Positions 4,270-13,899 of a DNA stretch of 33,108 nt are shown piece by piece (position 1 is the first letter of the stretch; the number at the start of each line of letters is the position of its first letter). The notes under the pieces were generated by a model. It ran no database searches. It worked only from the letters and a program-made list of their open reading frames with translations, and was not told the origin of the DNA. The stretch is taken from positions 1-33,108 of the forward strand of contig JAFNIT010000013.1 of assembly GCA_017601345.1 (NCBI GenBank), in the 5' to 3' direction. This stretch comes from Candidatus Brockarchaeota archaeon. GTDB lineage: Archaea; Thermoproteota; EX4484-205; JAAOZP01. A program made the position numbers and the translations under genes.

Positions 4270-4617
4270 ATGAACGAGAGACACTTAGCCTACAAGTCCT
4301 CCTCCGTCCACCTTAGTCGTGAGCTTAGGGCAAAGTACGGTTTCAGGAGCCTGCCGATTAGGGCCGGAGACAGAGTCCTCATAATAAGGGGGGACTATAA
4401 GGGTGTTGAGGGTGATGTAAGTAGGGTTGATAGGAATAGGGGGCGTGTCTACATTTCCGGCGTCTATAGGGAGAATGCCCGTGGGGAGCAAAGACTAGTG
4501 CCGATACCCTTGAGCTCCATCATACTTGTTAAAATCGACGAGAAGGATAGGTGGAGACAACGTATCATAGGGAGGAAGCGTAAGCCTGCTACGGAGGTTT
4601 CTGAAAGTGGCGCGTAA
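4270..4617 (+). CDS. rpl24: Ribosomal protein L24 (uL24)
   Basis: Assembly-initiating 23S rRNA-binding protein with a KOW domain. The KOW motif is seen in IRAGDRVLIIRGDYKGVEG, followed by a VYISGVYREN strand pair. ATG 4270 gives 115 residues beginning MNERHLAYKSS; the GTG at 4261, which overlaps the rpl14 stop, is an alternative only three residues longer. A GGTGGTG stretch about eight bases upstream favours the ATG. The end overlaps rps4e by 11 bases. Confidence 0.94.
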   Translation: MNERHLAYKSSSVHLSRELRAKYGFRSLPIRAGDRVLIIRGDYKGVEGDVSRVDRNRGRVYISGVYRENARGEQRLVPIPLSSIILVKIDEKDRWRQRIIGRKRKPATEVSESGA

Positions 4618-5326
4618 AGGAGGGTCGAAGAGCCTCAAGAGGTATGCTGCTCCCACTCCCATGCAGGTAGTTAGCGTCAAGGAGAAGAAGTTTATCACTA
4701 GGCCTGAGCCAGGTCCCCATCGGCTTAAGCTTTCACTACCGCTGCAGGTTGTGGTAAGGGACCTTTTGAAAATAGCTGAGACGGGGAGGGAAGCGAGGAA
4801 TATTATAAAACGCTCTTTGATTCTTGTAGATGGGGTGGTCAGAACATCGCATAAATTTCCTGTTGGTTTAATGGATGTTGTAAGCATTAGGGAGCTTGAC
4901 AAGCATTACCGGATGCTCGTTGACAGCAAGGGTAGGCTGACACCGGTTGAATCCTCCATTGAGGAATCGTCAATGAAGATATGTAGGATAAATAAGAAAT
5001 ACCTTTACCGCGGGAAGATAATGCTTGCCACCGAGGATGGTAGGACTTTTGAAACCTACGATAATTCTCTTAACGTGGGCGGTTCGCTTCTTGTGAAGAT
5101 CCCTGAGGGTACTGTGGTAGATAAGGCTCCGCTTGCACAGGGTTATGTTGCATATGTGTTCTCAGGTAAGCATGCTGGCAGCATCGGTGTTGTGAAATCA
5201 ATCTCCGAATCAAGCCTGCTTCGCGACAGTACTGTTAAAATTGCCATTAACAGTAGGGAGGTAAACACAATTAGAGACTATGTTATGGTAGTCGGGAGGG
5301 AGAAGCCTTGGCTGAGGCTGTTTTAG
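4607..5326 (+). CDS. rps4e: Ribosomal protein S4e (eS4)
   Basis: Archaeal/eukaryotic small-subunit protein with an S4-like RNA-binding region and a KOW domain. The 239-residue product begins MARKGGSKSLKRYAAP, has the S4-like segment IIKRSLILVDGVVRTSHKFPVG, and a C-terminal KOW part (FSGKHAGSIGVVKSI). GTG 4607 sits inside the end of rpl24, and the 3' end overlaps rpl5, consistent with tight coupling. No defect seen. Confidence 0.97.
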   Translation: MARKGGSKSLKRYAAPTPMQVVSVKEKKFITRPEPGPHRLKLSLPLQVVVRDLLKIAETGREARNIIKRSLILVDGVVRTSHKFPVGLMDVVSIRELDKHYRMLVDSKGRLTPVESSIEESSMKICRINKKYLYRGKIMLATEDGRTFETYDNSLNVGGSLLVKIPEGTVVDKAPLAQGYVAYVFSGKHAGSIGVVKSISESSLLRDSTVKIAINSREVNTIRDYVMVVGREKPWLRLF

Positions 5327-12472: not shown

Positions 12473-12758
12473 GGAAGTGCTACGTCCGGGGAGAATATGC
12501 GTTATAACAAGGGGCAGGGATAAGGGTAAGAAATGTGTCATAGTTAGGCTTGTTGATGATTCCAATGTACTGGTAACAGGGCCTAAAGAGTTGAACGGAG
12601 TCAAGAGGGGTAAGAAAAACATCCTCCACTTAATGCCGCTCAAAGAAACGGTCAGAATAAGAGCGAACTCTAGAGATGAGACAGTTTTAGCAGCTATAGA
12701 AAAGAGCGGATTGAAACAATTCATGACGGAGCTGATTAGGTTTGAGAAATCTCGTTGA
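12465..12758 (+). CDS. rpl14e: Ribosomal protein L14e (eL14)
   Basis: Archaeal/eukaryotic large-subunit protein with a KOW-like barrel. The 97-residue product reads LRPGRICVITRGRDKGKKCV, followed by VTGPKELNGVKRGKKNILHL, the typical L14e core. It is found between cmk and cbf5 as in Crenarchaeota-type gene orders. It overlaps cmk at its start and cbf5 at its end. Confidence 0.94.
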   Translation: MPREVLRPGRICVITRGRDKGKKCVIVRLVDDSNVLVTGPKELNGVKRGKKNILHLMPLKETVRIRANSRDETVLAAIEKSGLKQFMTELIRFEKSR

Positions 12759-13738
12759 TGTCCTGAAGTTCAGGACTATTGTGAAGGAGGAGTATGAAAC
12801 CGACCCGAACTACGGCGAGTATCCGGAGAAAAGGAGTATCCAAAGGCTTCTTAAGCTGGGTATTGTAAACTTGGATAAGCCTCCCGGACCATCGAGCCAT
12901 GACGTTTCATCGACGGTGAAGAAGATACTTGAAGTCGAGAAGGCTGGTCACGCTGGGACCCTTGAAGAAATGGGGAGATCCCGGCGTGTCCGGTGTTTTA
13001 CCGGTTTGCCTCAACGACGCTACTAAGGCTGTTGAATACTTGCATATGATGAGCAAGGAGTACGTGGGGGTCTGCGAAATACATGGCGAGTTTGATGAGA
13101 AGGATTTGAGGAAGTGGGTTGAAAAACTGACTGGAGTAATATATCAGAAGCCTCCGGTAAAATCTTCTGTAAAAAGGACACTAAGGAGAAGGACGATACT
13201 CAATTTTACGATAGAGGATATTGCGGGGAGAAGGTTCTTATTCAGAGTGGTCACGGAGCCGGGTACATACATAAGGAAGCTCCTCCATGACCTGGGCCTC
13301 TTGATGGGCGTGGGTGCTCACATGGTTGAGCTGAGAAGAACAAGGGACGGGTTCCTGAACGAGGAATCTTCATCCACGTTACTTGAGCTTTACACCGCAT
13401 GGTACATGTACTCTAAAGACGGTGACGAGAGGCTCTTGAGGAAAACAATTAGACCGATAGAGGAGGCTCTCAAAGGCTTCCCCTCGATATACATTAAGGA
13501 TAGTGCTGTAGCAGCAGTTGCACACGGTGCACCGCTCGCAGCCAAGGGGGTTTCGAAAATAGACCATCCTCTTACCAAAGGCGACATCGTCTGCATAAAG
13601 ACTTTGAAAGGAGAATGCGTGGGCTTCGGAGTTTTAACAATGGATTCCGACGAGGTTATCTATGCGAAAAGTGGAGTAGTAGCAACTGTCGAAAGAGTCG
13701 TGATGGATAGGAATCTTTATCCGAAGACATGGGGCTGA
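12742..13738 (+). CDS. cbf5: tRNA/rRNA pseudouridine synthase Cbf5 (TruB family), gene interrupted by a 13-nt intron
   Basis: Catalytic subunit of H/ACA guide ribonucleoproteins (with Nop10, Gar1, L7Ae), also able to modify tRNA U55. Exon 1 (12742-12964) encodes an N-terminal extension, KLGIVNLDKPPGPSSHDV and GHAGTL; exon 2 (12978-13738) continues DPGVSGVLPV, then the rest of the catalytic domain (EPGTYIRKLLHDLG) and a C-terminal PUA domain (ALKGFPSIYIKDSAVAAVAH onward). Removing the 13 bases 12965-12977 rebuilds GTLDPGVSG, with the catalytic Asp codon GAT split after its first base, and gives 984 coding bases (327 residues), the usual archaeal Cbf5 length. TTG 12742 is the most upstream good start; GTG 12781 is an alternative. 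The ORF track splits this gene into two ORFs. See the separate intron entry. Confidence 0.92.
12949..12988 (+). other. Bulge-helix-bulge intron (12965-12977) in cbf5
   Basis: The exon-exon outer helix is CACGCTGGGA (12949-12958) with TCCCGGCGTG (12979-12988): 10 bp, one of them G-U. The central helix is CCCT (12959-12962) with GGGG (12972-12975), ending in one G-U. The 5' bulge is TGA (12963-12965) and the 3' bulge AGA (12976-12978). The archaeal splicing endonuclease cuts after the second base of each bulge, which here releases AAGAAATGGGGAG, 13 nt, exactly what is needed to restore frame and the catalytic motif. There is almost no inner helix: only A12966-U12971 could close a GAAA loop, so this is a relaxed motif. 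Confidence 0.88.
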
Positions 13739-13801: not shown

Positions 13802-13899
13802 GCTGGGGTGGCCGAACCTGGCTAAGGCGCAAGCCTGGAGTAGGACTTGAAAGCTTGTGGCGCTTATGCGCCGTAGGGGTTCAAATCCCCTCCCCAGCG
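13802..13899 (+). tRNA. tRNA-Ser (GGA most likely) with an 11-nt intron at 37/38
   Basis: Acceptor stem GCTGGGG/CCCCAGC (7 bp), D arm with GCC/GGC, anticodon stem CAAGC/GCTTG, long variable arm GGCGC-TTAT-GCGCC, T arm AGGGG-TTCAAAT-CCCCT, and discriminator G at 13899. The long variable arm with discriminator G indicates serine. The anticodon loop is 18 bases, not 7. With an intron TAGGACTTGAA (13841-13851) at the standard position 37/38 the loop becomes CTGGAGA with anticodon GGA (13837-13839). An alternative reading removes 11 bases on the other side and leaves CTTGAAA (anticodon TGA). The canonical intron site and lack of a bulge-helix-bulge for the second reading favour GGA. Mature length would be 87 plus CCA, which is not encoded. 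Confidence 0.88.

Follow-up and report, generated by a model that had tools for sequence, protein, structure and literature searches.

The window analysed here, 33,108 nucleotides of contig JAFNIT010000013.1 (assembly GCA_017601345.1) from the hot-spring archaeon Candidatus Brockarchaeota, carries a cbf5 gene on its forward strand (positions 12742-13738) whose coding sequence is split over two reading frames. Cbf5 is an RNA-guided pseudouridine synthase. The 13 nucleotides that break its catalytic aspartate codon are, to judge from comparative sequence analysis, almost certainly a functional archaeal pre-mRNA intron of the bulge-helix-bulge (BHB) kind in a relaxed form; this confidence concerns the nature of the element and does not extend to its history. 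The anatomy of the intron, its conservation, the complementary variation of its helices and the presence of genes for the processing enzymes are all evident in the sequences.

An earlier note on this DNA had described the signature GTLDPxVSG as broken over two frames by exactly 13 bases, and the translated open reading frames agree with it, since GHAGTL and PGVSG lie in different frames, separated by 13 surplus bases. Excision of positions 12965-12977, the cut claimed in that note, gives a single Cbf5 of 327 residues in which the junction reads GAT (Asp). Against NCBIfam Cbf5 (curated cut-off, 242 bits) the spliced protein scored 404.5 bits over profile positions 4-318, and the unspliced reading frames scored 79.8 and 307.7 bits; translation of the unspliced frame would end after 94 residues. 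The best solved relatives of the spliced protein are archaeal Cbf5 proteins (3lwo and others, E ~1e-94), to which it aligns without gaps across the junction. Removal of the 13 bases restores a complete Cbf5.

RNAfold was run on positions 12943-12994, with z derived from 200 shuffles. The predicted fold has an energy of -31.5 kcal/mol (z = -4.67), and none of the 200 shuffles was as good. In order, the exons pair in a helix of 10 bp, the three bases AGA bulge out on the 3' side, and a 4-bp helix CCCU/GGGG leads to an open 9-nt loop; beyond one mismatch outside the 10-bp helix a further helix GCUGG/CCGGU is added (Table 1). The 10-bp pairing of CACGCTGGGA with TCCCGGCGTG and the CCCT/GGGG helix are exactly those named in the earlier note. 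Of the two bulges named there, TGA and AGA, the latter is a 3-nt bulge, whereas the former belongs to the open loop; the proposed inner helix A-GAAA-U was rejected, being unformed in the prediction, where UGAAGAAAU stays open. A strict BHB has two 3-nt bulges, a 4-bp helix and helices on both sides; the fold predicted here has one bulge, a 9-nt loop and no inner helix, and fits the relaxed bulge-helix-loop form, in which the central helix is kept and one bulge is missing or merged into the loop. As modelled, therefore, the intron is of this relaxed form and not a strict BHB, and its borders are BHB-like with predicted cuts after the second base of the bulge. The same pairing rule was satisfied at just one other site of the window, positions 5119-5154, and only the cbf5 site restores an invariant catalytic motif and recurs in independent genomes. 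The other site would be a 36-nt "intron" with 10 outer and 4 central pairs, within the rpS4e-like open reading frame 4607-5326, and its pairing is probably due to chance.

Table 1. Coordinates of the cbf5 exons, the putative intron and the predicted helices in the window
Feature	Positions	Strand	Basis or remark
cbf5 exon 1	12742..12964	+	TTG start; final G is base 1 of the Asp codon; CBF5 profile positions 7-70
Intron AAGAAATGGGGAG, 13 nt	12965..12977	+	one-base shift either way gives an identical spliced sequence
cbf5 exon 2, including stop codon	12978..13738	+	CBF5 profile positions 70-322
Distal outer-helix extension, 5' strand GCTGG (partner 12990-12994)	12943..12947	+	fold
Outer exon-exon helix, 5' strand CACGCTGGGA	12949..12958	+	fold, covariation
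Central 4-bp helix, exon strand CCCT	12959..12962	+	fold, covariation
9-nt terminal loop TGAAGAAAT, predicted 5' splice site after G12964	12963..12971	+	fold
Central 4-bp helix, intron strand GGGG	12972..12975	+	fold, covariation
3-nt bulge AGA, predicted 3' splice site after G12977	12976..12978	+	fold
Outer exon-exon helix, 3' strand TCCCGGCGTG	12979..12988	+	fold, covariation
Distal outer-helix extension, 3' strand CCGGT	12990..12994	+	fold

The site is not new. Crenarchaeal cbf5 introns, whose splicing has been demonstrated, interrupt the catalytic Asp codon after its first letter and are cut between bulge bases 2 and 3 (Watanabe 2002; Yoshinari 2006; Yokobori 2009, PMC2738675). The Brockarchaeota intron is the positional counterpart of this known kind, which settles a point on which the earlier note was unsure: gene, codon, phase, cut rule and relaxed BHB form are shared, as are hosts with (alpha-beta)2-type endonuclease genes. 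It differs in being 13 nt long instead of 16-44 nt, in lacking an inner helix and having a long exon-exon helix, and in its host, which stands outside Desulfurococcales and Sulfolobales; its splicing is deduced here from sequence. Archaeal bulge-helix-loop tRNA introns (PMC6379350, PMC12397907) likewise combine one bulge with one loop and are substrates of broad-specificity endonucleases, but the present intron is in an mRNA and its helix is partly coding sequence. A euryarchaeal mRNA is also processed at a BHB by the splicing endonuclease, in an untranslated region and in another gene. According to a paper of 2020, the cbf5 intron of Crenarchaeota was still the sole other reported BHB intron of its sort (PMC7714728).

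To describe the distribution of the intron, Thermoproteota, Asgard and Halobacteriota genomes were surveyed, and intron state was called with a profile built from the first 132 residues of the spliced protein, which separated the states cleanly. Calling from PF01509 matches alone was rejected, because split matches occur in intronless genes too. By hand count of the 158 sampled Thermoproteota genomes with a match, 78 have the intron, 79 lack it and 1 is unclear; 14 of the 78 introns are in-frame with stops, and all of these were read directly. Among Asgard genomes with a match it was found in 13 of 114 (G061, G063, G064, G084, G085, G095, G101, G102, G108, G116, G117, G123 and G143), and it was absent from all 57 Halobacteriota genomes with a cbf5 match, one of which (G334) has its cbf5 interrupted by ~1 kb. 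The nearest named relatives are Candidatus Brockarchaeota L093 and L095, with 79-90% identity in exon 2 across the group, members of which are also deposited as Crenarchaeota or Thaumarchaeota (L092, L094). Other named examples, as deposited, are Jordarchaeia (L105, L109, L133), Sigynarchaeota (L128) and Freyarchaeota (L135) among Asgard, as well as Bathyarchaeota (L110, L136, L137, L145, L148, L165), Caldarchaeum (L157 and L159, 14 nt), Pelearchaeum (L102, L121) and Terraquivivens (L111). The statement of the earlier note that BHB introns of cbf5 occur in Sulfolobales and Desulfurococcales thus accords with the publications, but they are not confined to these orders. Two Asgard genomes, G097 and G125, were dropped as carriers, their Asp codon being intact and the insert elsewhere, and the Asgard count excludes a second cbf5 copy with the intron in each of G160 and G129. 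The second copy of G129 forms a long branch on the Cbf5 tree; that of the Asgard bin G160 (G160:C57, L186) groups with Bathyarchaeota and is probably a contaminating contig in the public bin.

The pairing was compared with that at the same codons of intronless cbf5 genes (94 distinct introns against 60 intronless genes). Outer pair 2 was formed in 71 of the 94 genes with the intron and in 8 of the 60 without it (p = 1e-14), and outer pair 4 in 83 of 94 and 26 of 60 (p = 4e-9), counts that cover related sequences, so that the p-values are not strict although the contrast is large. The uninterrupted outer helix averaged 3.9 pairs with the intron and 0.7 without, and each central-helix pair was formed in 90-94 of the 94 introns. 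When strands were re-paired between intron-bearing genes, 0 of 1000 trials attained the observed pairing; re-pairing among intronless genes did not lower it. The Leu codon preceding the Asp is CTA in 76/94 intron-bearing and 7/60 intronless genes. The 5' splice site reads TG/A or AG/A (cut at the slash) in 85 of the 94, and the base after the 3' cut is A in every one, as the Asp codon requires. Outer-helix strands of the 13-nt introns include, besides CACGCTGGGA/TCCCGGCGTG, the pairs CACAGCGGGA/TCCCGCGGTG and CACGCGGGGA/TCCCCGCGTG.

The intron is 13 nt long in each of the seven genus-level genomes whose cbf5 could be read (G000-G005, G007); in the eighth, G006, no cbf5 match was found. The three remaining families of the order gave lengths of 13-14 nt (13 in G010 and G011, 14 in G008 and G009), and two further families (G016/L027 and G220/L206) gave 13 nt; none of the 94 distinct cbf5 introns was shorter. 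The earlier note's "unusually small" is apt, as 13 nt falls below the published minimum of 16, a range (16-44 nt, PMC2738675) that is descriptive and not defining. The longest cbf5 intron seen here interrupts the same codon in a Bathyarchaeota bin (L025/L137, G053) and, at 76 nt, exceeds the published maximum. In introns of 13-14 nt the outer helix averages 8.3 pairs and an inner stem is almost absent, against 2.3 outer and 7.7 inner pairs in introns of at least 32 nt, which is suggestive, over 3 usable independent contrasts, of an exon-exon helix replacing the inner helix in the shortest introns.

As for the splicing machinery, the genome encodes a catalytic EndA subunit whose closest relative is the Aeropyrum pernix alpha subunit (3p1z, E = 2e-47). 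It carries the motif GPGIDHAP, the His of which corresponds to Ala in the 3ajv chain, and its Lys at residue 42, aligned with the Lys in VEKPRG of A. pernix, is presumably the conserved Lys of the Crenarchaea-specific loop. Relaxed specificity of EndA is conferred by that loop. A second EndA-type subunit without the catalytic His is encoded by a separate gene, and an RtcB ligase is also encoded (E = 6e-174). At the gene level an alpha-like and a His-less subunit, the components of a hetero-oligomeric endonuclease, are therefore both present, and their assembly is predicted. According to a review, relaxed-motif introns are removed efficiently only by (alpha-beta)2 and epsilon2 enzymes. Of 40 Thermoproteota and Asgard genomes sampled, most have two EndA genes whether they carry the intron or lack it, and the (alpha-beta)2 enzyme is therefore a common background and not a sufficient cause. 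In the G000 bin the second subunit occurs in two diverged copies (G000:C5:276-533, L061; G000:C11:265-522, L060), both at contig ends and adjoining the same neighbour gene, and relatives have one copy; the bin probably mixes two strains.

Taken with the recovery of a full-length Cbf5, these genes, the conservation of the insert and the complementary changes in its helices support the earlier note's proposal of a functional intron. Cleavage, ligation and the exact cut sites are deduced as follows. The exon ends would pair in the transcript, and the 3-nt bulge with the 4-bp exon 1-intron helix would offer both scissile bonds to an (alpha-beta)2 splicing endonuclease, whose cuts would follow G12964 and G12977. 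This would release the 13-nt intron, the exons would most likely be joined by RtcB, and GAT for the catalytic Asp would be regained. Some observations weigh against this account: the exon strands of the helix are also constrained by the conserved GHxGTLDP coding, which accounts for part of the pairing; outer pairs 3, 8 and 9 are about equally frequent in intronless genes; and excision of 12964-12976, 12965-12977 or 12966-12978 gives the same mRNA, leaving the register ambiguous by one base either way. The register 12965-12977 was chosen among these equivalents because the published rule places the cut between bulge bases 2 and 3.

A ribosome might instead skip the 13 bases or shift frame on unspliced mRNA, and such programmed bypassing or frameshifting deserves mention because earlier crenarchaeal cases were mistaken for it (PMC2738675) and the hairpin could act on a ribosome. 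We consider it very improbable: at one fixed codon the insert ranges over 13-76 nt and occurs in all three phases, many inserts hold in-frame stops, helix and bulge geometry stay constant while the insert varies, which fits no single ribosomal event, and splicing at the same site has been shown by others in Crenarchaeota. The draft state of the assembly (~77% complete), with apparently two strains in the bin, might further suggest a sequencing or assembly artefact, but this is refuted because seven genomes of the genus, the independent assemblies L092-L096 among them, share the 13-nt insert and show silent and compensatory differences.

The history of the intron was examined on a Cbf5 tree of 154 rows, the deep branches of which are poorly supported. 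Presence and absence require at least 15 changes, compared with 39-54 when labels are shuffled, so that presence follows descent strongly, and gain and loss are indistinguishable deep in the tree. In 2009 an origin in the ancestor of Desulfurococcales and Sulfolobales was proposed (PMC2738675). This does not cover the new cases under either history discussed below, because the intron is found in about half of the sampled Thermoproteota and several Asgard groups. No open paper already stating the wider distribution or this conflict was found, nor any report of cbf5 introns outside Crenarchaeota, as judged from titles, abstracts and a few papers of the open literature, with subscription literature outside the search. 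Inheritance from an ancestor older than that of Desulfurococcales and Sulfolobales, with later losses and shrinkage, appears most likely. We tentatively suggest, as a proposal that may be right, one very old intron that the shared ancestor of Thermoproteota-type and Asgard archaea already possessed; it would since have been lost many times and, in Brockarchaeota and a few other lines, trimmed to a 13-nt limit, with a long exon-exon helix replacing the inner helix.

A serious rival, which we regard as possible but somewhat doubtful, is repeated independent insertion at one hot spot, where the GTLDP coding (GGGACCCT...ATCCC) can be nearly self-complementary and the exon sequence itself can favour the fold. 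It would accord with the number of changes needed, with the weak deep branches and with intron interiors that vary widely in length and sequence. It agrees less well with the excess of changes under shuffled labels and with the uniformity of phase, position and bulge letters throughout. Moreover, among the surveyed groups the insert occurs only in Thermoproteota and Asgard, mostly with two separate EndA genes, and the complementary exon sequence is mostly missing from intronless genes, so that a hot spot is not pre-formed there. We prefer a single old origin followed by many losses.

Several further features were recorded. By inspection, the neighbourhood of cbf5 in the window resembles the usual archaeal ribosomal cluster, and the start of exon 1 overlaps the 3' end of an upstream rpl14e-like gene. 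Directly after cbf5 lies a tRNA gene (13802-13899) with an 18-nt anticodon loop, which likely carries an 11-nt intron and by eye is tRNA-Ser, with anticodon TGA or GGA depending on intron placement; ARAGORN found no tRNA near cbf5 in seven relatives. In L175 (G097) and L182 (G125), cbf5 holds a stop-containing in-frame insert of ~42 nt between INLD and KPPGPTSHE. Its BHB-like pairing (CTGG-ATA-GCTTG ... CAAGC-CCAG) is preserved by a one-sided change between the two genomes, and the insert marks a candidate second cbf5 intron site. In L041 (G012) Cbf5 seems to be interrupted after GTYIRKLC by an intein-like stretch in an open frame of ~800 aa, and the same may hold for other Asgard cbf5 frames of 856-902 aa (G097, G124, G125, G128, G179).

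Hardly any introns are known in archaeal protein-coding genes, and the Brockarchaeota case adds a lineage and a smaller size; the wider distribution is a more interesting result than the single intron. In many of these genomes, gene finders blind to such introns will break cbf5 into two frames. The lengths form a natural series with which to ask for the lower size limit of introns spliced by the endonuclease. If the intron is indeed very old, it would have been present on the line leading to eukaryotes, through their Asgard relatives. Its age, its repeated loss and its possible role as a brake on Cbf5, proposed by the authors of 2009, are now open to comparative tests.
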